A stretch of DNA of 64,000 nt from Prorocentrum cordatum. Its lineage: Eukaryota; Sar; Dinophyceae; Prorocentrales; Prorocentraceae. Below are positions 7,590 through 57,450 of the stretch, piece after piece. Under the pieces are notes generated by a model that was not told the DNA's origin, did not search any database, and saw only the letters and a program-made list of their open reading frames with translations. Both the position numbers and the translations under genes were made by a program. Within the stretch, counting starts at the first letter, position 1. Each line of letters starts with the position of its first letter. The stretch lies in the NCBI GenBank assembly GCA_963575745.1, contig CAUYUJ010018059.1, positions 546,001 to 610,000 on the forward strand, in the 5' to 3' direction.

Positions 7590-8060
7590 ACTGCTCCCGC
7601 AAGCATCCCACCCACCCACCCGCAATTACGTTTGCAAAAAATTATGCGGCGGCGATTGCGATGTCTGCTATTCGCTGGCTGGCGCATCGCTTCGGCCGCG
7701 CTAGCGCGCGCAGGCTCGCGCGCAGAGCGGCCATGTAGTCTGGCGCGACCGACGCGGCCGCAGTGGCGCTGACCCTCGGGATATCCCAGCATTTTTCGCA
7801 GGCCGCGCTGAAGCGCGGGCACTTCCGTGCGAGTCGGTGATTCGGAGGGCGCAATAGCATGGCGATGTCGACAACGGCATACGCGATGATGAGTATAGCG
7901 GCGTTGGTGACGACCATGACGATGACGGCAAGGCCAATGACGTCGCCGATGCTGACCACGCCTCTGACTATGATGGCGCCCGCGCGTCGGTGATGAACGT
8001 ATCAGTGGGATTTCGACATGCGCGCGGGGCCGGCGGGCGCGAGTTGCACGCATGGTGTCA
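7590..8060 (-). repeat. inverted copy of the 32-40 kb long repeat
   Basis: Contains the segment with GGTTTGCAAACCAAG-like, GGCCGCGTCGGTCGCGCC-like and GTGCCCGCTGG-like blocks on the minus strand. These are the same blocks, in order, as in the copies at about 32.15, 33.43, 36.67, 38.28 and 39.59 kb. Minus-strand ORFs here are by-products of the repeat. Confidence 0.6.
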
Positions 8061-32120: not shown

Positions 32121-34429
32121 TCGCACATGATATATTGCATTTGCCCGACTCGCACGGAAGTGCCCGCTGGAATGCGCCCAGCGGTCAGCGCCATCGCGGC
32201 CGCGTCGGTCGCGCCAAATTAGGCGGCCGTTGCGCGCGCATGCGCGGGTTGGCGCGGCCGCAGAGATGCGCCACTCAACGCCAAGTTTCATCGCAATCGC
32301 CGCCGCATAGGTTTTGCAAGCCAAGTTGCGGGCGGGTGGGCGGGATATTTGCAAGAGCAGTGGAGTGGGCAGCTCAATGCGAACAGTTATGCATTTTCCT
32401 TTTTACAGAAGAATTAGGATCCAGCACCACCACCCCCTGGCTTTGTCGATCCTTCTCTCGTGCTGCAATTTACGTACGATTGTGCCCCATCGCCCATCCT
32501 ACACATAGACTCGTATCCCCTTAGCCCAGCTGGTATCGATCCCCCCCCCCCGCCATCCTTTGCAAAGAATACCATGCACGCGCAATCGTTTATCCAGGAA
32601 CACCAGTTTCCAATCCTCCCGGGCAAAAACACAGAAACGAAGGACACACGCGCGCGTCGTCGCGCACATGCCGAAATCCTTCAAACATCTTCGCTTCCAG
32701 AAGGATTTCAAAATCGATTGTCCAAACAACGCGTAAAAAAAAACATGGTTTCGCAACGCGGGTTTTCAGAAAAAAGCGCGCGCATTCTTGCGAATTCTTA
32801 AGGGGGCCATGATTGTTCAACATTATTTGCAAATGCTAGCAAACGGGCTTCGCGCGCGCATGTCGAAATCGTTCGAACGCCCTTTTGCGCGTGTTGTCGC
32901 GAGAGTCCTCTGGCAATTAAATTACGACGAAGTGCGCGCGCGTGCATCGTCGCGCGCGCATGCCGAAATCCTTGGACAACCGTCGTTTGCGCAGCGTTTT
33001 CAAAACCGAATGCCCAGGTCACAGCCAACATCACATGGTTTCGCAACACCAGTTCTCAAGACATATCTTGCGCGCGCGCCCTTTCGAATGCTTCATAATA
33101 CCATGAGTTTGTTATGCATCTTCATGGGATTCTGCCAAACGGGCCTCTGTCGCCGCATGCCGACATCACTCGCGCGCTCTTGCGCGCGTGCTGGGGGGGG
33201 GGGGGGGGGGCGCGATGCGTATCAAATAACTTCACGCGAGCCACTCTCGCGAGTGCGCAGCGCCCGCATGCCGAATTCCTTCCGAAACCTGCATCGCCGA
33301 TGCGAGGGCGCCGTCATCGCCGTCGGCGCGACCAGCATCGGCGCCCGCGTCGCCAGCATCGCCACTATCATCGCCGCGTCTACCGCAGTCGGCATCGCCA
33401 TTCTGCCGCGCCCGCCCAAGTCGCCGACTCGCAGTGAAGTGCCCGCTGGGATGCGCCCAGCGGTCACCGCCACCGCGGCCGCGTCGGTGGCGCCGAACTA
33501 GTTGGCCGCTGCGCGCGCGTGCTAGGGTCGGCGCGGCCGCAGGGATGCATCAGCCAAAGCCAAGCATGCATTGCAATAGCCACCGCATGGGTTTTGCAAA
33601 CCAAGTTGCGGGTGGGTTGGTGGGATGTTTGCAAGCGCATGGCATGCGTTAACTCATGGGTAGAAAGCAATTGCACCACCCAGATTGCACCTCGCCCGCT
33701 GCACTGCATAGATTTCCCTTTCCAAAGAAAAACGAAGAAGAGATAGGTTCTTCCACCTTCCTCCCCCCGGGGTCTAGAGACTCACCCTTTGGCATTGCAA
33801 GTTGCATATGAGTCTGGCCCACTGTCCATCCATCCTACCTGTGAATTCATTGTATCCCAGCCAGGTCGGTATCATCGCCCCCCCCCCCCCCGCCATCCCC
33901 TGCAACTAATATTACGCGTGCTCGTTTATCAAAAACCATCATGGATCAAGAACCCGTGGCGAAAATGGGACGAAGAGCGCACGCGCGCGTCGTCGCGCGC
34001 GCTCGCCGAAATCCTTCAAAAACCTTGCGGGTTTCGGTAGGATTTCAACATTGAGCGCCCCCCCCCCCCCCCCAAACAAGACCATATTAAAACAAAAAAC
34101 AATAGCCTGGCGAAGGACCCAACCATATGCAGTTGAGAGTACCGCAATTGTGAATATCTTCTTCGGTGGCGCTCCCTATGGGGCCACGAGCCGTATGAGG
34201 GGTGTGCCGAAATGCGTGGCAGTGTACACAACACGAACGAAGACGATAGGTCCGAATATGAAAGCTTGAGCGCGTGCGAGTCGGATCGCGAGCGAGTCTG
34301 ATTATGAATGAATCTGCGCGCGATTGATTCTATTCGCATGAATGCGTGCATGGATACGCCCAGTGTAAATGTATGTATACGACTGTGAACAGTTTGGGTC
34401 TGCGTGACTCTCGGTACTCGTGACTCTGA

Positions 34430-35725
34430 GCGTCGCCTCTGCAGGGGGCTTCCCTGGGAACCCCGACGGCAGCGCCCGCGCGCCGCGACGCCCATGTCGG
34501 CACGCCACACACCTGGTGTGCGGGACGCATGCGGACGGCAGCACTGGGGCCTTCGGTGGAGCTCCCTGTGGGGCCACGAAACGTGTGAGGGGTGTGCCGA
34601 AATGGGTGTGCGGGACGCATGATGGGGGGTGTGGGGACGAAATGGGTGTGCGGGACGCAAGATGGGGCCTTCGGTGGAGCAGCCACAACGTGTGAGGGGT
34701 GTGCCGAAACGTGTGAGGGGTGTGCCGGGTGTGCGGGACGCATGCGGACGGCAGCACTGGGGCCTTCGGTGGAGCTCCCTGTGGGGCCACGAAACGTGTG
34801 AGGGGTGTGCCGAAATGGGTGTGCGGGACGCATGCGGACGGCAGCCATGGGGCCTTCGGTGGAGCTCCCTATGGGGCCACGAAACGTGTGAGGGGTGTGC
34901 CGAAATGGGTGTGCGGGACGCATGCGGACGGCAGCACTGGGGCCTTCGGTGGAGCTCCCTGTGGGGCCACGAAACGTGTGAGGGGTGTGCCGAAATGGGT
35001 GTGCGGGACGCATGCGGACGGCAGCCATGGGGCCTTCGGTGGAGCTCCCTATGGGGCCACGAAACGTGTGAGGGGTGTGCCGAAATGGTGTGCATGCATG
35101 CGGGACGCATGCGGACGGCAGCACTGGGGCCTTCGGTGGAGCTCCCTGTGGGGCCACGAAACGTGTGAGGGGTGTGCCGAAATGGGTGTGCGGGACGCAT
35201 GCGGACGGCAGCATGGGGCCTTCGGTGGAGCTCCCTATGGGGCCACGAAACGTGTGAGGGGTGTGCCGAAATGGGTGTGCGGGACGCATGCGGACGGCAG
35301 CCATGGGGCCTTCGGTGGAGCTCCCTGTGGGGCCACGAAACGTGTGAGGGGTGTGCCGAAATGGGTGTGCGGGACGCATGCGGACGGCAGCCATGGGGCC
35401 TTCGGTGGAGCTCCCTATGGGGCCACGAAACGTGTGAGGGGTGTGCCGAAATGGGTGTGCGGGACGCATGCGGACGGCAGCACTGGGGCCTTCGGTGGAG
35501 CTCCCTGTGGGGCCACGAAACGTGTGAGGGGTGTGCCGAAATGGGTGTGCGGGACGCATGCGGACGGCAACCATGGGGCCTTCGGTGGAGCTCCCTATGG
35601 GGCCACGAAACGTGTGAGGGGTGTGCCGAAATGGGTGTGCGGGACGCATGCGGACGGCAGCACTGGGGCCTTCGGTGGAGCTCCCTGTGGGGCCACAAAA
35701 CGTGTGAGGGGTGTGCCGAAGTGGG
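34430..35725. repeat. 90-bp satellite, dimeric higher-order structure
   Basis: AGGGGTGTGCCGAAATGGGT recurs every 90 bp (34801, 34891, 34981 and so on). Units largely alternate between a form with GCAGCACTGGGG...CCCTGTGGGG and one with GCAGCCATGGGG...CCCTATGGGG, a 180-bp higher-order period. Because 90 is divisible by three and the unit lacks stops, both strands read as 30-residue peptide repeats (plus-strand ORF 34720-36033; minus-strand ORF 36196-34016). I regard these as by-products. A small insertion at 35085-35105 and single-base indels break the phase. Confidence 0.85.
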
Positions 35726-35728
35726 TGA

Positions 35729-45499: not shown

Positions 45500-45708
45500 T
45501 CCTCCTCCTCCTCCTCCTCCTCCTCCTCCTCTTTCTCCTCCTCCTTTCTTCCTCCTCCTCCTCCTCCACCCCGTCCTTCTCGTCCGCCTCCTCCACCTCC
45601 TCCTCCTCCTCCTCCTCCTCCTCCTCCTCCTCCTCCTCCTCCTCCTCTTCCTCCTTTTCCTGTTCCCCCCTCCAACTTATGGTGGTGGTGGTGGTGGAAA
45701 ACAGGCCC
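45500..45708 (-). repeat. (TCC)n tract ending in the CACCACCACCATAACTTGGAGGG module
   Basis: CTCCTCC repeats to about 45.66 kb are followed at 45666-45708 by the complement of GGGCCTGTTTTCCACCACC...TAAGTTGGAGGGG. That module also borders purine tracts at 57.32, 61.77 and 61.96 kb. The matching left arm is not seen here. Confidence 0.65.
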
Positions 45709-46019
45709 ATCACAGGGGGGGGCAGGTCTGGGCGGGCCTCCTCGGAAGGCTCGGATGGCCAATCCATTGAGAAGCCCTTTTGAGAAGCATTCTAATCCAC
45801 GGGACGTCAGAGTGACCGTTCGCCATAGTGACCTTGGGCGCGGGCCCAGTGGGGTCTCCCGATCGCTGGGCGCGAAGCGGCAGCAGCGGCTTGCGCGACC
45901 GGGTTTGGCCACCCCGCGTCCCCCGTGCAGCCGCGCACCAGAGGCCACTCTCGCCTAGGGCCACTCCTGCGTGTAGGCGATCTGAGCTATCTCCGAGCCC
46001 CGGCCGCCCTCTGCGAAGG

Positions 46020-46290: not shown

Positions 46291-46688
46291 TCCCCTTCAT
46301 CGGCATAAACTTTCGAAGGTCCCCACGGGTGTGTCGGGCCGTCGCTCTGCCCGCCGTGGTGCGCCGCCGCCGGCGCCGCTCCAAGCAGTCCAGTGTGGAC
46401 CTCCGCCAGCTTCGGTACTGGCGTAGCGACTTCGGTTTAGCAAAGTAGAGTGCCTTATCATACTTATAGATGTAGTCGTCGCATATGCAAATGTACTTAC
46501 CGAAGCCGCAACTACACTTACACGGTGCCCGTAACCATACTTATACAACAAGCTATAACCGACATCTAACCATCTTACAACTTTCATAACTTCTGCAATT
46601 TCCATGCCCCTCCCCTTCCCTCCCCCCCTGCGGTTCGGTAGTTAGCCAGTAGGACGGCGAGAAGAAAGGAGGGGGGAAGGGCGATGAC
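46291..46688. other. left flank of the palindrome-rich element
   Basis: A relatively AT-rich stretch at 46.44-46.60 kb repeats ACTTAYA/ACTTACA motifs on the plus strand (ATACTTATA, GTACTTACC, ACACTTACA, TCTTACAAC), followed by a C-rich segment. It may be subterminal sequence of the element; no inverted terminal repeat could be matched with 56.1-56.5 kb. Confidence 0.35.
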
Positions 46689-46810
46689 AGCGATGCATTC
46701 GCTAACGCATTCCTGGGTATGAGCGATAAATTCGCTATGTGGTTCTCTGAGCGATCAATTCGCTGTGCAATTATCTGAGCGATCAATTCGCTATAAGCGA
46801 TGAATTCGCT
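46689..46810 (+). promoter_or_regulatory. palindrome cluster upstream of ORF1 (5 copies)
   Basis: Copies at 46689-46703, 46722-46736, 46750-46764, 46778-46792 and 46796-46810, e.g. AGCGATCAATTCGCT. Spacing is about 28-33 bp except for the last pair. A degraded leader-like GCGCCATCATTCGAAG follows at 46840-46855. Confidence 0.65.
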
Positions 46811-46897
46811 ATGAGGCCCTTGCCCATGCCGCCCCCACTGCGCCATCATTCGAAGCCGTTTGCATGCGCAAGCCCGCGCGTTTTTTTTGCCGTAGAT

Positions 46898-48317
46898 ATG
46901 GCTGCCCAGCGCTTGCGCGACCAAGCCGAGGCCGTCGGGCGATTGCTCGAGGCAGTGCAAGGGCAGCCCTGTTTCGATACGGTGGCGGCCACGCAGGAAA
47001 GGATGCTCGTGCAGGCTTTCGGGAGCGCGAGGCTGCAGCCCACGCAGGTGACAACCCTCTCGTCTCTCGTCGCAGCGCAACCCTGGTCCGAGGTTTCCAA
47101 GGGGAGGCTGTTGGAGAAGCTCGGCAGCATCGTGGCTTCTGGCAGCGCCGTGGGCTTGCGAATGGCTCAGCAGGATTACGAGTGCATCTTCGGGTACCTG
47201 ACAGCGGGCTCGTGGCACCAGTTGGCGCGGGCCGACGTGCCCGAGGAAGCGAAGCTCAACGTGCTGGTTGATGTTGCGATTAGCTTGGGGCTTCGCAACC
47301 CGACCGAAGGCACGCATCAGATGTTGACGGCGATGTGGCGCATGGCAGTGGACGGAGCCGAGGCCGCGAAGAATGTGGCGTGGGCTGCAAAGTACTCGTA
47401 CCCCCAGCAGACCAAGCGCGTGTTCAAGCGCCAGGCTGCGGGTGAAATTGCGGCCCTCGTCGTCGACCACGCCTCCCCCAGCTGTTCCAATTCTCCCCCC
47501 CCCTCCCCTGGCCGCAATTTCACCCACGAAGGTTTCGAGGCTTCCTGCGCCCCCCGTTCGGCTGACCGAGCTGCCTGCGTCCCCCTCGACGTTCTGGGAG
47601 AACCACCCTGGCTTCTTCAAGCAAGTGTATGGCGACGAATTGCCAGCGGCATGCCCCGCGCCAGAAGCCGCGATTCGCTCCGTCCAGGCTACGCACCCGT
47701 GCCGCAACACAAAGCAGCAGGCCACGGGGGCGCAGATGATGAGCGCCTCGGCGTCGCAGCCCGACGTTTTGCAGATGATGCAGCTCATGTTCGACAACTT
47801 GCGGCGGGCGGACGTCGGCGCTCAGACGGGCCCTTTGAACCTCAAGATCCTGGGAGGCGGCGCGAAACGTGCCGCGGCCTCGGCGTTCGCAGCCGTGGGG
47901 GGCGCTGCCCCGAGTTCTCTTCCATCTTCCGCCTCAGAAGGGGCACCGTCGCCAGCAGCGCCAACGCCACCGTCGCCAGCGACGCCTGCAGCAGCCAGCG
48001 TCGCCAAAGGGAACAAGACTCCCCCCAAGAAGGAGGATGTCGCCTCGGTCACCGAGGACATCCTGCACGGACTCGTGACCAAGGAGAAGGGGGAGGGCCC
48101 GAAGCCGAAGGCAAAGGGGAAGGCAAAGGGGAAGGCGAAAGCAAAGGCGACGAAGGCTGGGGCTAAGACGACGGGCAAAAGCCACGGGAAGGGCGTCACC
48201 GTGTCACCCCTGTTCAAGCCCATCAAAAAGCTCGGGTGTTCGAAGTGTCGTTACGCCAAAATGGGGTGCTCGAGTTGCAAAGAGCGGCTCAGGATTTCGA
48301 AGCTGCTGGGTAAGTAG
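46898..48317 (+). CDS. ORF1 of the palindrome element: unknown protein with C-terminal zinc-like motif, one frameshift
   Basis: The N-terminal part (frame of 46898) is an Ala-rich helical segment with KLNVLVDVAISLGLRNPTEG. The C-terminal part is read in the next frame to a TAG at 48315-48317. The frames join at a run of eight C at about 47501-47508, so one base extra (or +1 frameshifting) separates them. The tail has Pro/Ser-rich linkers, Lys/Gly-rich KAKGKAKGKAKAKATKAG and CSKCRYAKMGCSSC, a C-x2-C-x6-C-x2-C motif suited to metal or nucleic-acid binding. From memory similar unannotated proteins are common in dinoflagellate genomes. Start: ATG at 46811 is in frame, but 46898 (MAAQ) is preferred because a leader-like motif lies between. 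A T-rich TTTTTTTTGCCGTAG ends 2 nt before it and could be a splice acceptor. Confidence 0.55.
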
Positions 48318-48545
48318 CTCATAATGTGTGTAGGTTTCCTGAGGCGCTCTCGGCCGCGCTGGGTCCGCCACGCACTTTGCTCATAGTCACGCGTCCAATG
48401 CATTTCGCTACCGCGCTTCTGTATATGGGGCCCTGGAGAGCGCATCCTAGCGTTTGGGTAAGCCGCGCGAGCGCCCCAGGGAACCCTGCCGCTCTCTTTT
48501 ACTCTCGCGAGGGCGTGTCTTACCTTTGTCTGCGATAAAAAGAAC

Positions 48546-48826
48546 AGCGATCCACTCGCTAAGCGATTCATTCGCTTGGGGGATAGACAGGGTGAGAGGG
48601 GTGAGAGGGGAGAGTGATGGACCGCTGACTTGGAGAGGGGTGAGAGGGGTGAGAGGGGTGAGAGGGGTGAGAGGGGAGAGGAGGGTGAGAGGGGGGAGTG
48701 ATGGAGGGGGCCTCGACCCCTCAAGCCAACCCCCAACCCCGCGTCAGCGATGCATTCGCTTTCCTCCGACCCCCCATCGAAGCAGCACTCCCTTCACCTC
48801 AACCCTGTGTCAGCGATGCATTCGCT
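48546..48826 (+). promoter_or_regulatory. palindrome cluster between ORF1 and ORF2 (4 copies) with GTGAGAGGGG repeat
   Basis: Copies at 48546-48560, 48562-48576, 48746-48760 and 48812-48826. Between them is a GTGAGAGGGG minisatellite (48.59-48.70 kb). The last two copies lie in a ~66-bp direct duplication. Confidence 0.65.
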
Positions 48827-48863
48827 TGCTCGCGGAGCGCCCCTGCGACCGCGCCTTCGCATT

Positions 48864-48879
48864 GCCATTTCGGCTCAAG
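48864..48879 (+). promoter_or_regulatory. spliced-leader-like sequence upstream of ORF2
   Basis: GCCATTTCGGCTCAAG matches the 3' sixteen bases of the known dinoflagellate spliced leader (GCCATTTTGGCTCAAG) at 15 positions. It lies 24 nt before the ORF2 ATG. Confidence 0.6.
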
Positions 48880-48903
48880 GCCTCGGCGGCCGCGCCAGCG
48901 ACA

Positions 48904-49638
48904 ATGGCCGACGACGCGGAGAGGTCACTGCAATCGTTGTTGTCGTTGGGCAACCCCTTTGCGCAGTTCCAGGATGGGGCCCAGGAGGCGGGTGAAAGCA
49001 AGGAGAGCGGGGGCGCTGGCGACGAATCGCGCATGAGTCCTATCTCAGACTCAGAGTCCGAGAGGCCGAGCGCCGCCGACAAAGGCAAAGGCTGCAAGGG
49101 CGAGTGGCGCGCCAGCGGCATGGGCGAGCCCGACAGCGGCGGCGAAGCGGAGGACCCTTGGGAGAAGAGGCGCAAGCAAGCGAGGGTGACCGCCTTGTGG
49201 AACTCCCCGCAGGCTCTCAGGGACGAGTCGGACGTGGCAAGGCAGTTCGGCGTGCCATGGGCCATGCGCGGCCCGCCTCCTCCAAGCGAGGGGGGGCCGA
49301 CGATGTGGCGCGGCAACAGATGGTCAGAAGGCGAGCGGCTTCGGAAGAAACGCGGTGGCTCATCCAGGGAGTTCTTCGAGGAGAAGTACGGCTACGGCGG
49401 CTGGGGCTGGCAAGCAGGCCACGCGCCGAAGCGGCCTTCGGACTGGAAGGGCAAGGGCGGCGGCAAGGGCGCCTCCTCCAAGAGCGGCAACGGTCAGGAG
49501 CAGAGCAAGGGCGGCGCCTTCTCCGAGCGCGGCAAGGGCGGCAAGGACGGCAAGGGCAGCAAGGGCAGCGCCCCCGAGGGCACGCGGGCGCCGCGGGCGC
49601 AGGCCGCCTGGAACACTGATGCCCTCGAGGACATTTGA
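48904..49638 (+). CDS. ORF2 of the palindrome element: Ser/Glu then Gly/Lys-rich protein, unknown
   Basis: A 244-residue ORF from ATG 48904 (MADDAERSLQSLLSLGNPF), chosen because the leader-like motif lies just upstream even though the frame is open further. An acidic Ser-rich N-terminal third is followed by a Trp/Arg-containing middle (EDPWEKRRKQARVTALW, MWRGNRWSEGERLRKKRGGS, FFEEKYGYGGWGW) and a long Gly/Lys/Ser tail (KGKGGGKGASSKSGNG). The composition suggests an RNA- or DNA-binding accessory protein with a disordered tail. No known family is recognised. Palindromes flank it on both sides, as for the other ORFs. Confidence 0.5.
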   Translation: MADDAERSLQSLLSLGNPFAQFQDGAQEAGESKESGGAGDESRMSPISDSESERPSAADKGKGCKGEWRASGMGEPDSGGEAEDPWEKRRKQARVTALWNSPQALRDESDVARQFGVPWAMRGPPPPSEGGPTMWRGNRWSEGERLRKKRGGSSREFFEEKYGYGGWGWQAGHAPKRPSDWKGKGGGKGASSKSGNGQEQSKGGAFSERGKGGKDGKGSKGSAPEGTRAPRAQAAWNTDALEDI

Positions 49639-49649
49639 GACAAAAAACC

Positions 49650-50067
49650 AGCGATTGACTCGCTATGCAGTTCACAAGCGATTGAATCGCCATGCAGGTC
49701 ACCTCTCTCGTCTACTTATCCTTGCCCCTCTCTCTTCTATTTCTCTTTGTCCCTTGTGCGCGCAGAGAGTGCAGAATATATTGTTGATAAACGAGCCCGC
49801 GAGTGATTCAACATATAGAAACGCAAGGCAAGAGTGGATCTTGATTCTGAAGAGATCCCACGGGGAGTTCTGTGAGAAATCTGGCGGGGCATTCCTTCAC
49901 AACGCTCTCTGGGCTGTCACGCGCAAAAAAGTGCCCCAGATTCGGCGGGCCGTCCCCCCCCCCTCCGGTCGCCTCGGCTTGCTCGACCTCCTCGCTCAGC
50001 CCCCTTCGATGCGTCGGCATCCTTACGCCCCTGCCCGTTGCATTTCCTCTCAGCGATTGCATTCGCT
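49650..50067 (+). promoter_or_regulatory. palindrome cluster between ORF2 and ORF3 (3 copies) and leader-like site
   Basis: Copies at 49650-49664, 49677-49691 (last base changed) and 50052-50067 (6-nt spacer). CTGGGCTCAA follows at 50106-50115. A T-rich tract ending in AG at 50141-50142 could be a splice acceptor, 35 nt before the ORF3 ATG. Confidence 0.6.
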
Positions 50068-50176
50068 CCATGGGGCGGGCCGCGCGAGTTGTCATCTGCA
50101 TTCGTCTGGGCTCAATCTATTCAAAGCGGTTTTCTTTCTTAGCGGCCAAGGGCCAAGGCGCGCTCGGCGGGCAGCG

Positions 50177-50719
50177 ATGGATGGACCGTCGGAGGCCGCG
50201 AGCTCTAGCGGCGCGGAATGGCTGTGGCGCGGCTTTTGCCCTCGCGGCGCTTGCGCGAAAGGTGGTTCTTGCCTCTTCCAGGGCCCTGACAGGGAGGTCG
50301 TGAAGGAGAAGGTGGCGAACCACTTGTGGTCTTCTCCCTACCACAACGTCGACAACACCCTCGAGTGGGAGGCGGCGTTGCAGGAGGCAAATCATGACGC
50401 GTACATTGTCTACGAGCTGGGCGCGCAGAAGAGCAAGGAGCGCACGCCACCCGAGGAACCGCCGCAAAGGCGGGCCGTTCAACAGCGGTCTTCAGGACCA
50501 GTCGGCCAGTACAAGTCGAAGGCAGTGGTGACGCGAGACATCACGGTGCGCAAGGGCGAGCTGCAGCAGGTCACGGGCTGCCTTGACAGGTCTCTGACGG
50601 CGACGGAACACGCCGCGACCATCGCACGCAGCGCAGCGACGGCGTTCGAGGACAGCGCTGCTGCGATCTCGGGCGCCAAGAAGACGCTCGAGAGCATCTG
50701 CATGCGCCGCGTGGGCTGA
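50177..50719 (+). CDS. ORF3 of the palindrome element: small protein with Cys/His-poor N-terminus and helical tail, unknown
   Basis: A 180-residue ORF starting MDGPSEAASSSG. Residues about 15-35 (WLWRGFCPRGACAKGGSCLF) contain three Cys and many Gly, possibly a small metal site of CCCH type lacking a clear His. A helical acidic middle follows (DREVVKEKVANHLWSS, EWEAALQEANHDAYIVYEL), and an Ala/Thr-rich helix ends the protein (LTATEHAATIARSAATAFED). No family is recognised. The ATG was chosen over longer upstream frames because the leader-like GGCTCA at 50109-50114 is upstream and the extra N-terminal sequence is low-complexity shadow of ORF2. Confidence 0.5.
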   Translation: MDGPSEAASSSGAEWLWRGFCPRGACAKGGSCLFQGPDREVVKEKVANHLWSSPYHNVDNTLEWEAALQEANHDAYIVYELGAQKSKERTPPEEPPQRRAVQQRSSGPVGQYKSKAVVTRDITVRKGELQQVTGCLDRSLTATEHAATIARSAATAFEDSAAAISGAKKTLESICMRRVG

Positions 50720-50815
50720 GCCACCCCAAGACGCGGCCTGCTGCCCTGCGCTCGGCCTGTCTCGGAAGCCCGCGGCTTCTGTGAGAAAAGAATAGCACCC
50801 TCGTGACCCAACTTG

Positions 50816-51659
50816 AGCGATCGAATCGCTGGCTCTTCCTCGAAACCCCATTTGAGCGATCGTATCGCTGGCTCCTTTTCGGCCCGCCCATGCGCGACCC
50901 GCCAAGAGGAGAGGGGAGAGAGGAGGGGGGGAGGGAGGAGACAGTAAAGAGAAAGTAGAGAGGAGGCCCGCCTCGGGGGCCGATTCTCGGAGGCCGAGGT
51001 CCAGGAGGACGCATTTTGGTCGGGGTGATCCGCGGCTTTTCCCGCAGGGGCCTGCGGGTAGTTTTTCTGCACAAGCCGGCGTGGAGATCCCTCTGGCGGC
51101 GTCTGTGGCGCGACTGGGGGGGGGGGGGGGCATGGGCCCCGAATCCAAGCCCGAGGCCGAGCCCGAGCCCGCGCTTTGAGCCCGAGCCGAAGGCCAGGTC
51201 GGAGCCCGACCCCGAGCCTGAGCCAGCGCCCGAGAAGGACAGAGCAGAGAGAAAGAGGAGTGGGAGAGAAGAGGAGGGACAGCAGTAGCACCATAGCGCA
51301 ACGGCGATTGGTGGTCCGGTTGTCCAACGGTGGTCCAACATGGGTGGTCCAACAGAAGGTGGTCCAACGTGGTCCAACGGTGGTCCAACGGTGGTCCAAC
51401 AGGGGTCCAACATGTTGGACCACCGTGGTCCAACGGTGGTCCAACGGGGGTCCAACGCGGGCGGTCCAACGGTGGTCCAACGTGACGTCGCCATCCGTGG
51501 TTTGCGCTTTTCTGTTTGGATGGGGGCGGGAGGGAGCGAGAGAGCGAGGATCGCTGAGACCTCGTTTCGCTTGCTGAGGCTAGCGATGCACTCGCTGTAA
51601 CTAGCGATACACTCGCTCAGACTAGCGATTCACTCGCTCAGACTAGCGACTCGCTCGCT
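50816..51659 (+). promoter_or_regulatory. palindrome clusters between ORF3 and ORF4 (6 copies)
   Basis: Copies at 50816-50830, 50855-50869, 51582-51596, 51603-51617, 51624-51638 and an imperfect 51645-51659. The last four are spaced 21 bp apart. The ~710 bp between the two clusters holds GAGCCCGAGCC and GGTGGTCCAAC repeats, no gene. Confidence 0.65.
51300..51490 (+). repeat. GGTGGTCCAACG minisatellite
   Basis: About fourteen GTGGTCCAAC units at 10-18-bp spacing, including one inverted AACATGTTGG junction. It lies in the ORF3-ORF4 gap. Confidence 0.85.
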
Positions 51660-51700
51660 CAGACGCGCCCCCGAGCTCACGACGCCACTGCGCCCTACTG

Positions 51701-51720
51701 CAGCCACTCTGGGCTCAAAG
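51701..51720 (+). promoter_or_regulatory. spliced-leader-like sequence upstream of ORF4
   Basis: CAGCCACTCTGGGCTCAAAG resembles the spliced leader end with three substitutions and two single-base insertions. It begins 42 bp after the last palindrome and ends 49 nt before the ATG. Confidence 0.4.
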
Positions 51721-51769
51721 CAGCGCGCCCTGCTCTCGGGTCGCTCGGGAGCGCTCGCGCAACCGAGGT

Positions 51770-53452
51770 ATGGGCGCGCCTGTGGGGAACCTGCTGCAGC
51801 AGATGTCGGCTGCCGCCCCGCCGCGCGTCTCCACCCCGCCCGAGCGCGTGGAGGTCAGGAAGCAGCGCTCGCTGTTCGAGTTCTCCGTTGTGGCTGCGGC
51901 GGACCGTGCGGGGCAGCTAGACGACGCGAAAGAGGAACCCCCCGAGGAGCCAGAGGAAACCCCCGAGGAGCTCGGGGTGGCCCCAGAGGAGCTAGGGGTG
52001 GCCCCAGAGGAGCTAGGGGTGGCCCCAGAGGAGCCAGGGAAACTTGCCGAGGAGCTAGGGGCGGCCCCAGAGGAGGCCGCCGAAGTGGCCGCTCACGGCG
52101 CCAGCCGCGCAGGCAAGGCCAAGCGCCCTCCCAAGAAAACGAGGGCCAGGGCAGCCAAGGCAGATGCAGGCCCTGCGCCCGAGGAGGACGACTGGCCCTG
52201 GGAGTGGGGGCCCAAACCCGAACACCTCGACGAAGGAGGCGACCGCAGCGGCGCGGCTGCGCCCGCAGCTGAGAAGAAGAAGAGGGGCAAGAAGAGGAGG
52301 GCCTCCGAAGGCGCCGAAGGCTGGCCAGCCGACGCCGACGGCGACGGCGCCGACGCAGGCGACACCGGAACTGGCGGAGACGACGGCGCCGAGGGCGCCG
52401 ACTACGGCGTCAGCGGCGAGGGCGGCGAGAAGGCCAAGAAAAAGAAGAAGGGGAAGAACAAGGGGAAGCGCTCCAAGACCGCCAATAGGAAACGCAAGAA
52501 AACGGCCGCGCCGAGGAGCTCGGAGGTCCCGACAGAACCCGCCGAGGTCCAGCCACCGAGCGCCGCTGCCCCTGGTCAGAAGGCTATCGACGCGGTGCCG
52601 CGCTTCGATCGCAACCCCGCTTGCACCAAGTGCAAGAAGCCCGTGGAGCCGCTCGCAGCAAGGATTGCAGGCAAGAAAAGGAATTTTTGGCAGTGCTCAA
52701 CGTGCAGTTCGCGGCACACTCAGCTCCAAAGGATTTTCGGAGGGTGGCCGCCACAGTCCTTCAAGTCGCTTTCACAAGAAGAGAAATATAACATTTGGAA
52801 CGACGTCAAGGAGGCGAACGGGAAGGCAGAGGTCGAGAAGATTGCGATGGAAACGTTCACGAGGGTATACCGCGAGAGCCGCGCCTCAGGCAGGCAGGGG
52901 AAATACCCCCCACTGAGCGTCTACAAGAAGAAGGGCTACTCCGCAAAGAGGATTAAGAGGCTGTGCAAAGACAAGAAAGAAGACGAAGTCCTCGGCACGC
53001 TCTACTTCGTGAACATCGATTACAAGGACGACAAAAGCGTTGAGGAAGAGGTCCGCGAGTCCCTTATCGCCGCCAAGGAGCGCAGCGCCAGCTCGCAGCA
53101 GCACCAAGGCAAGAACAAGGGCAAAGGCAAGGGAAAGGAGCAACTCTCGCCAACCTCAGCCACCAAGAAGATGATGAGCGACGCCGTCAAGATCCTGGCC
53201 AAGGCGAGCCCGCTCGCTTCCGAGGCAAAAGGGTTGTTGAACAGCCCCAGAGCAAGCAAGCTGCACAAGGACCACAGCAAGGCCCTGGCGTGGCACGTCA
53301 AGGACCTCGACGCTCTCGCGGCCGCGGCCCAGGATACCCTGTCCAAGAACGCCGTGCTGTCCATTCAGCTTGCGACGGTGAAGGAGAAGGCAGACGCGGC
53401 TGAGAAGAAGCGCGCTCAGGCGGAGACAGCGCTCAGCACTTTCGACGACTGA
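51770..53452 (+). CDS. ORF4 of the palindrome element: basic protein with a C4 zinc motif and coiled-coil end
   Basis: A 560-residue ORF. The acidic N-terminal region has PEELGVA-type heptapeptide repeats (about 62-90). Lys-rich nuclear-signal-like blocks follow (KRPPKKTRARAAKA; KKKKKGKNKGKRSKTANRKR). A zinc-like domain has Cys285, Cys288, Cys309 and Cys312 (CTKCKKP ... FWQCSTCSSRH). Next is a conserved-looking segment (EEKYNIWNDVKEANGKAEVE, PPLSVYKKKGYSAKRIKRLC, VLGTLYFVNIDYKDDKS). The C-terminus is helical (LATVKEKADAAEKKRAQAET). The zinc motif and basic regions suit a DNA-binding protein, possibly the one that recognises the palindromes. I recall unannotated dinoflagellate proteins with a similar middle; a search is needed. 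Stop TGA at 53450-53452. Confidence 0.6.
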   Translation: MGAPVGNLLQQMSAAAPPRVSTPPERVEVRKQRSLFEFSVVAAADRAGQLDDAKEEPPEEPEETPEELGVAPEELGVAPEELGVAPEEPGKLAEELGAAPEEAAEVAAHGASRAGKAKRPPKKTRARAAKADAGPAPEEDDWPWEWGPKPEHLDEGGDRSGAAAPAAEKKKRGKKRRASEGAEGWPADADGDGADAGDTGTGGDDGAEGADYGVSGEGGEKAKKKKKGKNKGKRSKTANRKRKKTAAPRSSEVPTEPAEVQPPSAAAPGQKAIDAVPRFDRNPACTKCKKPVEPLAARIAGKKRNFWQCSTCSSRHTQLQRIFGGWPPQSFKSLSQEEKYNIWNDVKEANGKAEVEKIAMETFTRVYRESRASGRQGKYPPLSVYKKKGYSAKRIKRLCKDKKEDEVLGTLYFVNIDYKDDKSVEEEVRESLIAAKERSASSQQHQGKNKGKGKGKEQLSPTSATKKMMSDAVKILAKASPLASEAKGLLNSPRASKLHKDHSKALAWHVKDLDALAAAAQDTLSKNAVLSIQLATVKEKADAAEKKRAQAETALSTFDD

Positions 53453-53585
53453 GGCTCCCCTGCGGGAGGAGGGGAGGAAGTGCCGCGACGAGCATGCTGC
53501 ACGAGTGGCCGCCTAAGTTTCTTGACATCTCTCGGGCTGAGATGCGGCGTCGGAGAAGAAATTCGGTGCAGAGCGGCGGGGGCCA

Positions 53586-53661
53586 AGCGATCAATCGCTC
53601 ATTTCGTTAGCGATGCACTCGCTGTGAAGCGGCGCCCTCGATCGGAAGCGATTGAATCGCT
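53586..53661 (+). promoter_or_regulatory. palindrome cluster between ORF4 and ORF5 (3 copies)
   Basis: Copies at 53586-53599 (4-nt spacer), 53609-53623 and 53647-53661. CTTGGGCTCAGG follows at 53704-53715, 38 nt before the ORF5 ATG. Confidence 0.65.
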
Positions 53662-53753
53662 CGGCGCGACGGCTTGAACCCTTCACCTGCTTTACATTCA
53701 GCGCTTGGGCTCAGGAGCGCCCGAGTCCCGCGCCCCAGCACCCGCGTGGCCAT

Positions 53754-55930
53754 CATGGGTAAGCAAGTTCTCGAGAAGCGCCGCCGCCTTGGGAGGCTGG
53801 TGACCATTCCAGGAGCGACGCGCGCTGGTGTGTTCGAGGTCCTCCGCCGGCTGAGGCAAGCGCCCATCGAAGAGGAAGTCTCTGCGCATGAGGCCAAGGC
53901 CGCCGCGAAGATGGAGTGCGATAGAGAGATGTCGTGTTCTCTGAAATTGCCGTTGTGCGACGGCGGATCCTTCGAGTGGCACATTGCAGGGGCGCCGCGG
54001 GGCGCACCAAGTAGCGCGTCTTTCTTGGGCCGCAAAAAAATCAACAGCGGCATCTGGATTTTTTTCTGGTGCCAGTTTTCTCCTCTCCCCCTGCCCCTTC
54101 CCCCCCTCCACCCATTCCCCCCTTCCCCCTTCCCCCCCCCCCCCCCCAGGGCGGGAGGGGGTGGTGCAGGGGGTTCGCGGCGCGCCTGCTTGGCGCATCC
54201 CGCTGAGGCCTGCCCGCTTGGTTCAACGGTTAGTCGAGGTGTCCCCAGCGCTGAAGCGCATGTTCGCGGCCGCGCCTATCACCCCAGCAAGGCCGTGGAA
54301 CGTGATCCTTGCGCACGACGAGGTCACGCCTGGAGCTGTGCTGCGCCCGCATAACCGCAGGAAGTTCGTTGCATTTTACATTTCGTTTTTAGAATTCAAG
54401 CATGCCCTTCGGCACGAATGCTGCTGGTTCCCCCCTGGGCGTGATCAGGTCGGCACAAGTGGAGAAAATGCGCGGTGGCCTCTCGGGCGCGATCAGGTCG
54501 TTGCTGCGTCGCTTGCTTCTTGAGGACGGCAATCTCGTGGATGGCGTGGCCTTGCCGCTACCAAGCGGGCCGACCATGTTCTTCGCGAAATTTGCCGTAC
54601 ACTTGGGAGACGAGGTCGCTTTGTCCAGGGGCCTCGGCGTGAAAGGATTCGCAGGGATCCGACCGTGTCTGAAGTGCGCCAACGTGCTCAAGAAAGGCTC
54701 AGGCATTGTTGGCGCCGCGCCCAATCGGTTGGTGGAAATCACACGCAGGGGCCGCAGCGCATTCATTTGCAATTCTGACGAGGCCGCATGGGGAGCCCAC
54801 GACGAGTTGACGCACTTACAAGGGACAACATCGAAAGCCGCATTGGTGCGCCACGAGAAAGCACGCGGAACCAATTTAAATCTTGATGGGTTGTTGGCGG
54901 ACGCAGACCTCCGAGGGCAGGTCGGCCCTGTTTCGTCGCTCCATTTTGATTGGATGCATGTATATTTGTGCAATGGTGCTGCGCCCCAGGAAATGTGTTG
55001 CTTCATGTCGGCATGGCAAGCCGTTCCTGCTCTGAGGGACATCTATCCGAAGTTGGAGCGGCACTGCCATGCAGACTGGTCTTTCCCCCAGCAACACCGA
55101 CGCAAGTGTCGGGAGGCCCACGTTGTTTTCTGCAAGGCCAGGGAGAACGCATCCAAGGAGCATTGGCGAAGCAGCGCCTCAGAGTTGTTGTGCGTTTACC
55201 CGCTGGTGCGGCATTTTGCTTGCATTGTTATCTTGCCGAATTTCGATGAGCTGCGCGACGAGGTTGCGCCCCTCTGCCATTGCTTCGCTGTGATTGACAA
55301 AATTCAAAAGGCGAAGGCGGGCGACATCGATGCCGCGGCCCTCGAAGCTGCAGTTGACCGCCATGCGGGGCCGACAATTGGAAACCAAAGTTTCATTTGA
55401 CGACGCGCATTCCCGAGCAAGTGGAGAAATTCGATGTTGCGTCGGAGAGCTTCGTTGTTGGGACGTCGCACCTTCTGCCGAAAATGATTCTGGACAACCA
55501 AGATATACTGAGAGGCTTCGAGAAAGCTGCAATTTCTCGCGTGCTGTTGGCGCGCCTGCAGGAGCTCGGAAGTTTCGACGAGCGCCCAGGGCTCAGGGGG
55601 GGCGATGCGGAGTTGTCGCCCCTGCTTGCTGAAGCAGTCGGCGGCGACGTCGTCCTTTCATCCAGCGCTGCTTTCAAAGGCTTGCTTGTTTGGGCAGGCG
55701 ACGTGGTGCACATGCAGAACAATTTTTTATGCGTCGCAGCTCTGGGCCAACGGGGAGACGATCTATTCATTCTTGTGCACGAGTGCGTCGTGATCGAGAA
55801 GCGGGCGCCGAACGCGTCAGTCCTGCGGAAGGACGGCGAATTGCTTCTTGCGTGGTGGAGCGGCGAATCGGTTGAGATGTGCCACGCTTGGTCGGAGCTC
55901 GCCTCTGGCGACATTCTTGCTTTGCACTGA
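53754..55930 (+). CDS. ORF5 of the palindrome element: transposase-like protein, interrupted
   Basis: Segments in three frames make one protein. First, 53754 to about 54015 (MGKQVLEKRRRLGRLVTIPG). Then a probable intron with a long pyrimidine tract ending in AG at about 54149. Next, about 54150-54430 (PWNVILAHDEVTPGAVL, FVAFYISFLEFKHALRHECC), then about 54430-55385, and finally about 55385-55930 (KPKFHLTTRIPEQVEKFDV). The shifts lie at a run of six C (54431-54436) and near a run of four G (about 55369). Recognisable pieces are HDEVTPG, CLKC, FDWMHVYLCNG (D-x-x-H) and KPKFH, a set I associate with transposase-like proteins in dinoflagellates and loosely with KDZ/Plavaka or tnp2-type transposases. 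It would be the mobility protein of the element. The indels may be decay or assembly error. Confidence 0.5.
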
Positions 55931-55954
55931 GCGGAAAACAACATCTGCCAGGAC

Positions 55955-56005
55955 AGCGATTGAATCGCTCATCAAAAAAATTTCACTAGCAGCGATTGAA
56001 TCGCT
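55955..56005 (+). promoter_or_regulatory. palindrome pair after ORF5 (2 copies)
   Basis: Identical AGCGATTGAATCGCT at 55955-55969 and 55991-56005. These are the last copies seen in the window. Confidence 0.7.
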
Positions 56006-57000
56006 CATCCTCCTCGCAATCCGCCTCTTTCTTCGGTCTGCGATCCGAAGCCTCAGCAGCCGCGCGGCGCTGGGGGGATGGGGGGGCGCGGGGGAGGAGG
56101 GGGGAGAGGGGAAGGATAATGTGCGATATTTATAATTTCGAGGGTTGCCAAAGGAGCCCAAAGCTAACTTATTTCACCCAGTTGCAAGTCGTTTACAAGT
56201 TGTTTGTAACTCCCATAAGTTCTTTGGCCTGCAACTCACAACTCACAGTTACGATAGTCACATCCCTGGGTAACTTGGGCGGCTGCATTTACAAGTGGTA
56301 AACAATGCAACCATCTGGGCTAACATCAAGTTGGGTAGTTGCATGTCAGTTCTTCAGATGACCTTAGCTATGTATCAACTGACACCATACTGTAACCAAA
56401 GTTGGCCAGCTTCAAGTTTTCCAACCCAAAGTCGCTACGCCAGTATGTGTCGTTGTTTACTGTTGTTGTGTTGCTTCGTCTTCTTAGTCTTGTTCTGAGC
56501 AGGATTATTTGAGTCCTCGTGAGTATTTGCATCACTCGTACGCTCTGCGATACTGTGAATATTCTCCTTCTTTTTGTTAGTCGCGTTGTATTCTAGGCTT
56601 GGCCGAGGGGGAAACGTTGTTCCAGGGGCACCCCTCACGAGGCTCCAGAGAGCCCCAGAATGGTCACCTTGGGCCAGGAGCACCTCTCTAGCGCCTTCCG
56701 ATCGCGAAGCCTCGTCGTCGTACCTCACTCTCCTGACAACCCCTTCCCTCCCTTTTCCCTCACCTCTTTCACCCCCTCCATACTCACGTTTTTGTATGGA
56801 GACCCATTTCCCCTTCTCCCCCGAACTTGTGTGGTTCGGGGCCTCGCTTCTCACGCATACTGTTCTGACGCGCAGGAGCTCAAGATCTTGCATGGTAGAA
56901 TTCGGATGCGCACACACACACACAAACACACTCACACGCATTTGTACATCCATACCAGTATACACATGTGTGCATCTGCACTGCTCTAACGCTTCCAATC
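56006..57000. other. right flank of the element and unique sequence, no gene
   Basis: From 56.12 to 56.46 kb the sequence is AT-richer with AACTTA, GTTTACAAGTTG and GTAACTT motifs, possibly subterminal repeats that echo ACTTAYA at 46.44-46.60 kb. The remainder has no recognisable ORF. A CACACACA run lies at 56.91-56.94 kb. Confidence 0.35.
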
Positions 57001-57290: not shown

Positions 57291-57323
57291 CCGTCCCCCC
57301 GCTCGGCGCACTCCTCTTTTGAT

Positions 57324-57450
57324 GGGCCTGTTTTCCACCATCACCACCATAAGTTGGAGGGGGAAGGAGGAGGAGGAGGAGGAGGAGGAGGAGGACAAGG
57401 AGGAGGAGGAGGAGAAGGAGGAGGAGGAGGAGGAGGAGGAGGGGGACCCC
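57324..57450 (+). repeat. GGGCCTGTTTTCCACCA module followed by (GGA)n
   Basis: The left arm (57324-57365) of the inverted-repeat module runs directly into a GGA tract. Confidence 0.7.

Follow-up and report, generated by a model that had tools for sequence, protein, structure and literature searches.

The analysed DNA is a 64,000-nucleotide stretch of Prorocentrum cordatum contig CAUYUJ010018059.1 (assembly GCA_963575745.1, forward strand; C17210:546001-610000 in the searched genome of 4.13 Gb and 21,875 contigs), hereafter the window. Between positions 46418 and 56443 it holds a mobile element of 10,026 bp with five genes on the plus strand, numbered by open reading frame (ORF): ORF1 (46898..48317), ORF2 (48904..49638), ORF3 (50177..50719), ORF4 (51770..53452) and ORF5 (53755..55930), the last being transposase-like. 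A short palindrome recurs in every gap between these genes and in both flanks. A preliminary description, made from the sequence alone, had placed the element at 46689..56005 and proposed a multigene mobile unit with a functional site common to its gaps. This proposal is supported by the ends, the copies and the conservation of the palindrome arms; the element is real, yet longer than first drawn, and its five co-directional genes hold with the correction that ORF1 is split by a 97-bp intron and that ORF5 carries an intron-like insert and is broken.

The element is delimited by terminal inverted repeats enclosing the five genes and all 23 palindromes. The left repeat (46418..46440, plus strand) consists of 15 exact base pairs (CTGGCGTAGCGACTT) and 8 bp with 3 mismatches, and contains the palindrome half-site AGCGA; the right one (56421..56443, minus strand) is its inverted match. 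A TA dinucleotide adjoins each end, at 46416..46417 and 56444..56445. With the TA included, the exact inverted match is 17 bp long (TACTGGCGTAGCGACTT, 46416-46432 / 56429-56445), the longest between the flanks of the palindrome region. The longest inverted match in 300 shuffles of the flanks was 14 bp, and none of 400 random equidistant pairs from the window reached 14 bp except two draws that fell on these very ends.

The same ends are found elsewhere in the genome. The exact 17-mer occurs at 20 places (1 for the reversed-pattern control), with six facing pairs 10.0-10.5 kb apart, and the 23-position end with up to 2 mismatches yielded 115 ends (control 1). The 100 ends listed form 40 facing pairs; in 36 the ends are separated by 9.9-11.0 kb, in the rest by 7.6, 11.2, 11.7 and 36.8 kb. 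Eleven full-length copies were aligned, the window's included; set aside were the one on C664, truncated by its contig, and the first of those on C15725, where the retrieved stretch stops before the expected right end. All 11 have the termini CTGGCG...CGCCAG, the repeat showing 0-2 changes, and a matching 2-bp direct repeat at their ends (TA in 7, TG in 3, CA in 1), while their outer flanks otherwise differ. Shared ends, 2-bp direct repeats and differing outer flanks together identify a transposon that duplicates 2 bp of its target. Every one of the 11 has the five coding regions in the same order, individual genes being damaged in some of them. The result named beforehand as refuting the proposal, five ORFs that never occur together elsewhere, was thus not obtained. 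The window element is one copy of a P. cordatum DNA transposon family with five genes on one strand, and its identity as a five-gene transposon is almost certain.

According to pairwise divergence, with gaps uncounted, the copies fall into two groups and a single outlier. Group A (8 copies) differs internally by 0.26-2.1%, the closest pair by 0.26%. Group B comprises the window copy and that on C13217, which are 2.65% apart and 6.3-7.0% from group A; the copy on C15238 differs from all others by 15.7-16.5%. The low divergence indicates that some copies moved recently and that the window copy is older. A paired palindrome pattern, searched genome-wide, gave 1182 matches; since each group A copy holds 20-25, this would make about 47-59 copies, which fits the 115 ends. 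The paired-pattern places, among the matches listed, lie on six contigs, each bearing an element copy; the second refuting result named beforehand, a palindrome frequent away from these ORFs, was not seen among them.

Some end pairs share identical 20-bp outer flanks: L058/L059 on C15725, perhaps a local duplication, and L053/L061 and L050/L065, perhaps haplotype or segmental copies. At C15069:20561-57399, the facing ends 36.8 kb apart may mark a nested insertion or a composite element.

The palindrome was searched in two forms. The literal AGCGATNNANTCGCT gave 21 matches, three of which are the same sites read on the other strand, leaving 18 distinct sites (mean in shuffles, 0.03). The looser AGCGA-N(3-6)-TCGCT gave 23 sites, all inside 46689-56005 and none in the remainder of the 64 kb. 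The earlier count of 23 therefore applies to the looser form and not to the literal one, and the confinement to 46.69-56.01 kb is confirmed. The spacer, reported as 4-6 nt beginning with T, is 5 nt long in 20 of the 23 sites and 3, 4 and 6 nt in the other three; T opens 19 of the 20 5-nt spacers.

Five palindromes lie upstream of ORF1 (46689..46810), four in the ORF1-ORF2 gap (48546..48826), three in the ORF2-ORF3 gap (49650..50067; exact at 49650 and 50052, with a single mismatch at 49677), seven between ORF3 and ORF4 (50816..51659, in two clusters, 50816-50869 after ORF3 and 51543-51659 before ORF4), three in the ORF4-ORF5 gap (53586..53661) and two downstream of ORF5 (55955..56005), all on the plus strand. 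Every gap and both flanks thus hold at least two sites, and all 23 lie outside the coding regions, both as originally stated. The five coding regions leave 3473 of 10030 bp, which gives a chance of 0.346^23 = 2.5e-11 for such placement, a figure to be read with the fact that sites within tandem arrays are not independent. Across the 11 copies, no exact-arm site with a 5-nt spacer was found in a coding region.

Many sites stand in local tandem arrays with a spacing of 21, 24, 27, 28 or 39 bp. A larger repeat unit was rejected because the site flanks differ and diverge. The idea of a signal used by the region's genes in general was rejected as well: the inverted repeats otherwise frequent in the window (25 listed for each arm length; arms 5-7, loops 3-8) are of simple sequence, consist of G+C only or stand in tandem arrays.

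The sites are symmetric in their arms and asymmetric in their spacers. On the gene strand the 5-nt spacers read T-N-N-A-N, with T in 19 of 20 and A in 18 of 20; on the other strand the corresponding counts are 5/20 and 7/20. This bias gives the sites a direction. Position 6 is T in 33/33 sites of each of four further copies (C4225, C4313, C14775 and C15725b). All 20 window sites that have a 5-nt spacer fold into hairpins, their stems 5-6 bp long (-4.3 to -5.3 kcal/mol).

Conservation of the sites was measured in alignment columns that do not vary inside a group. For group A against C15238, changes numbered 4/198 in the arms, 13/96 in the loops, 61/361 in the 15-bp flanks and 515/2659 in other gap sequence, flanks included; between groups A and B the corresponding values were 0/200, 2/95, 11/370 and 225/2681. 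Change is eight to ten times rarer in the arms than in neighbouring spacer sequence. Choosing sites for exact arms in the window copy may about halve the arm value, and the contrast exceeds that. Between C3313 and C15238, the arms have changed only at position 2 and position 12, twice at each, and positions 7-10 change at a flank-like rate; position 6 is unchanged in 20 sites, and changed in 1 of 20 between the window and C15238. The arms of the palindrome are far better conserved than the sequence around them.

The distance from a site to the next gene is also regular. For the start codons of ORF1-ORF5 in the window, the upstream distance to the start of the nearest site is 102, 92, 125, 125 and 108 bp. 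A range that narrow arose in 575 of 200,000 random placements with independent sites and in 41 of 200,000 with one draw per cluster. Over the 11 copies, which share descent, the distances are 102-137, 92-105, 125, 125 and 108 bp; those of ORF4 and ORF5 hold in 11/11 and that of ORF3 in 10/11, C15238 having no exact site there. Distances after stop codons vary from 12 to 229 bp in the window.

P. cordatum is described, in the consulted part of PMC10666404, as combining polycistronic transcription and spliced-leader trans-splicing with introner elements. The spliced-leader core GGCTCA occurs between site and ATG at ORF2 (-32), ORF3 (-68), ORF4 (-58) and ORF5 (-47) and is absent at ORF1 (expectation, 0.057 per 130 nt). 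Before ORF2, at 48864..48879 on the plus strand, lies a relic of the dinoflagellate spliced leader that matches it at 15 of 16 bases; none of 1000 shuffles was as good, and its score of 28 exceeds the best of 1066 control windows (22). For ORF4, a score reached by 1 in 1000 shuffles was yet matched by 23 of the 1066 control windows; ORF1, ORF3 and ORF5 score within the range of the shuffles. By these comparisons a leader relic is firm for ORF2 alone.

None of ORF1-ORF5 reached threshold against Pfam or NCBIfam. Without its intron, ORF1 encodes 440 aa; it has paralogues P0011-P0013, is in frame without stops in 8/11 copies and ends in a CxxC-x6-CxxC motif. The intron (47435-47531) starts with GC and ends with AG, and the same junction occurs in two of three paralogue models. 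Inverted repeats of 16 bp lie near both its ends (47440-47455, 47510-47525); it looks like an introner within a transposon gene. ORF2 (244 aa, low complexity, without a known domain) is in frame without an internal stop in 8/11 copies, five of these having ATG and stop as expected. ORF3 (180 aa), open in 10/11 copies, has a relative, P0014, with 82% identity and a cysteine motif resembling a CCCH finger. ORF4 (560 aa), open in 7/11 copies, has two P. cordatum relatives, P0009 (83%) and P0010 (about 35%), and a CxxC...CxxC motif. The cysteine motifs of ORF1, ORF3 and ORF4 were recognised by eye and serve as leads rather than tests. Ratios of non-synonymous to synonymous substitution (dN/dS), computed from codons uniform within groups, were 0.33, 0.57, 0.89 and 0.86 for ORF1-ORF4 between groups A and B, and 0.48, 0.69, 0.43 and 0.64 between A and C15238. 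For ORF2-ORF4 these values hint weakly at purifying selection.

ORF5 was assigned from its relatives. The window gene is damaged by frameshifts and by the loss of about seven residues near 55367; in HxxxH the second His is replaced, as is the last Glu further on. An intron-like insert at about 53985-54211 has weak inverted repeats; relative P0005 is without it. The second exon is open in 8/11 copies, the window's not among them, and six of these eight pass all six motif tests, counts that take no account of splicing. The dN/dS ratios of 0.17 between A and B (9 synonymous, 5 non-synonymous), 0.39 (A-C15238) and 0.44 (B-C15238) point clearly to purifying selection on ORF5.

Eight relatives (P0001-P0008) were obtained from the best 8000 candidates scored, and motif strings were picked by eye from their alignment. 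Among those reaching the respective positions, D-98/99-D occurs in 4/4, D-19-CxxC in 6/6, DWxH in 7/7, HxxxH in 6/6 and CxxC-243 to 247-HxxxH in 5/5; a Glu follows HxxxH after 18 residues in 5/6, P0002 having Gly. Judged by this residue layout, ORF5 is placed near the CACTA/Mirage/Chapaev/Transib (CMCT) group. The layout D-D-CxxC-H-HxxxH-E, as defined in the consulted part of PMC12730594, is that of a CACTA/Transib-type transposase, and ORF5 is probably CMCT-like, in keeping with the earlier view of the last ORF. The 2-bp target duplication of all 11 full copies lies within the CMCT range of 2-3 bp. All 11 also have 5'-CT..AG-3' termini, which are not strictly defining because the source gives them 'in most cases'. 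Sequence searches were silent: in Pfam, at E up to 5, none of nine ORF5-family sequences matched a family, and a PDB sequence search with ORF5 gave a best E of 0.78. RAG1 has the same residue layout as the ORF5 relatives.

The element was compared with described systems. Parts of five sources were consulted (PMC10666404, PMC11453091, PMC12730594, PMC4158355 and PMC2613891), and these parts contain no such architecture. En/Spm has a DDE-type transposase and the accessory protein TNPA, which binds short repeated motifs near the ends and also regulates the element (PMC2613891). The present element likewise joins a transposase-like gene with further genes and has conserved repeated motifs as candidate binding sites; it differs in having five separate genes, motifs in every gap, CTGGCG ends instead of CACTA, a target duplication of 2 instead of 3 bp and no Pfam transposase match among the nine ORF5-family sequences at E up to 5. 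CACTA elements proper have CACTA..TAGTG ends and 3-bp target duplications (PMC4158355), and membership of CACTA / En-Spm proper was rejected on ends, duplication and the missing Pfam match. The fungal CMCT lineages Plavaka and ESTA have 2-3 bp target duplications, and some carry extra genes (PMC12730594), both being points of likeness. Plavaka termini are TGT..ACA or CATCA..TGATG, and ESTA target duplications are TA (PMC12730594). Plavaka was excluded by differing termini in 11/11 copies, and ESTA by duplications that are TA in 7/11 and TG or CA in 4/11. Unlike these lineages, the element has no recognised TET/JBP gene, and palindromes around genes go unmentioned in the consulted part of PMC12730594. 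Dinoflagellate introners share inverted repeats at their ends and the same genome, yet lie within introns and are held to be non-autonomous (PMC10666404, in part); here the element carries five genes, and the introner-like intron sits inside its ORF1. No such element was found in the literature on dinoflagellate palindromes, introners, retroposition and CACTA/EnSpm transposons by title and abstract start (Repbase and most subscription papers fell outside this scope), and a described relative is possible.

A bacterial or phage origin was rejected: there was no tRNA, Rfam or significant family match, and one phage match covers 1% of the query. Viral contig scans with the site pair, query A1, the end repeat, ORF1 and ORF4 found no relative. 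Against genome contigs, the end repeat gave six bacterial records, which were taken as chance.

Related elements with other palindromes are present in the same genome. P0010, the distant ORF4 relative, has at least 165 matching stretches, often several per gene, from a search in which 98 of 229,709 first-look candidates were scored. These matches point to a larger group without a found description. Short stretches at two loci, C14924 (family 2) and C15446 (family 3), were examined. At C14924, the gap flanked by an ORF4-like gene (P0010, 71% over 49 residues) and an ORF5-like gene (P0005, 43% over 92 residues, E 4e-19) holds three sites AGCGG-N(5,6)-CCGCT (shuffle mean 0.02, largest 2). Four sites AGCGG-N5-CCGCT precede the ORF4-like gene (shuffle mean 0.003), in a low-complexity stretch where, over 100 shuffles, some 5-bp-arm family reached a count of 7. 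C15446 has AGCGGT-N6-ACCGCT, with four sites before and six after its ORF4-like gene and none in 300 shuffles of each stretch; its sites, as read (n = 10), are polar too. The frame after this gene was not recognised as ORF5-like. Both related loci thus hold other palindromes in which the two arms have changed together, with place and symmetry kept. In C14924, a site lies about 131 bp before the likely start codon of the ORF5-like gene, start codons at both loci being guessed.

Further features accompany these loci. Beyond the ORF5-like gene of C14924, an open frame with Cys pairs, seen by eye, follows a near-palindrome, AGCGGTCAGGCCGCA (L081, C14924:228300-229300); family 2 may carry a further gene. 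At C15446, long hairpins stand between palindromes and the next start codon (L080 ~265-395, L079 ~275-320), possibly small nested elements.

We propose that the palindromes are binding sites of an element-encoded dimeric protein controlling all five genes and perhaps the ends, a reading drawn from sequence patterns that we hold to be evenly balanced between right and wrong. A dimeric-protein DNA site accounts for the symmetry, the paired change of arms, the upstream position at all genes and the AGCGA in the ends. The element would move by cut and paste, as in CMCT elements, and the palindromes would be dyad sites for its own protein. From sites about 100 bp before the start codons, this protein could switch the five genes jointly, by activation or self-repression. 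The AGCGA half-site in the terminal repeats could let the same protein, or the transposase, mark the ends for transposition. Such a protein would act like TnpA of En/Spm, but with sites distributed over the element's full length. Where a copy has a dead transposase, as the window copy does, proteins encoded by other copies might move it.

Several observations weigh against this reading. No ORF has a recognised DNA-binding domain, all Pfam matches being sub-threshold, and selection on ORF1-ORF4 appears weakly shown (dN/dS 0.33-0.89 between groups). The sites are polar, with T at position 6 in 19/20 on the gene strand, and a plain homodimer site needs no polarity. By simple arithmetic, AGCGA or its complement would occur in a 17-bp repeat with a chance of about 1/40. 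Likeness of the arms could also be kept by conversion between copies. With guessed starts, the sites before the ORF4-like gene lie at least about 300 bp away in C14924 and about 400-535 bp away in C15446; close spacing as in the window family is therefore not a general feature. The family 2 terminal repeat, expected to hold AGCGG, was not found in 1 kb of the C14924 locus.

Polarity makes RNA hairpins a serious rival, somewhat doubtful as we judge it. Stems of 5-6 bp in a multigene transcript would guide cleavage, trans-splicing, polyadenylation or export and be bound by an element protein such as ORF3. The constant orientation to the genes, in the window, in the four further copies and at C15446, would follow directly, and the folding of all 20 window sites with 5-nt spacers, the co-directional genes, the leader relic before ORF2 and the joint change of arms between related loci agree with it. 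The stems are short, however, and the window shows no comparable hairpin family elsewhere. In C15238, an old and broken copy, a single arm mismatch is present in ten spacer sequences, and the three that carry two mismatches have not regained complementarity; an RNA role also leaves the half-site in the inverted ends unexplained. The arrangement of sites on both sides of every gene could instead mark cassette joints, genes having entered as processed copies beside palindromes and being movable or exchangeable there. The ORF2 leader relic, typical of processed copies and just downstream of sites, fits this idea, but that relic is firm for one gene, and the 11 copies keep the same five-gene order with no partial or shuffled cassette among them, which makes it improbable. 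Tandem arrays would equally arise if one short repeat had been duplicated without function. This passive origin is highly improbable and largely contradicted: the arms change far less than their neighbours, related loci hold the same layout in other letters, and decayed copies are almost absent, the window gaps holding 20 exact, 1 one-mismatch and 4 two-mismatch sites.

The same design with a different palindrome in two related elements suggests a private control signal for the element genes. More broadly, these transposons may form a dinoflagellate multigene group with a private palindrome code, in which one dyad brackets every gene, is specific to its family and changes in both arms together (AGCGA/TCGCT, AGCGG/CCGCT, AGCGGT-N6-ACCGCT) along with its reader protein; we place this proposal midway between doubtful and established. 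If it is true, such elements import gene control or RNA processing of their own into a genome about whose promoters hardly anything is known. To our knowledge, little has been established about the signals that control dinoflagellate genes; in the present case a short site stands out by its conservation, occurs in three related forms and has defined positions next to the genes of an element that was active recently. Naturally varying versions of this site and of the protein that may read it offer a cis/trans pair open to direct testing. A five-gene architecture would also be added to the CMCT-type transposons.

The remainder of the window contains other features. Ten other long frames had no relevant Pfam match at E 0.01. 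Just outside both element ends lies an inverted pair of a partly simple dispersed repeat (45582-45719 / 57313-57447), more than 100 nt long and 80-89% complementary; exact matches of at least 14 nt also join 57.32 and 61.99 kb. Two stretches separated by about 24 kb (7643-7837 / 32145-32309) share several exact inverted matches that keep a consistent order, making an inverted duplicated segment, and a tandem array of 11 copies of a 90-bp unit, with 94% matches, occupies 34705-35727.

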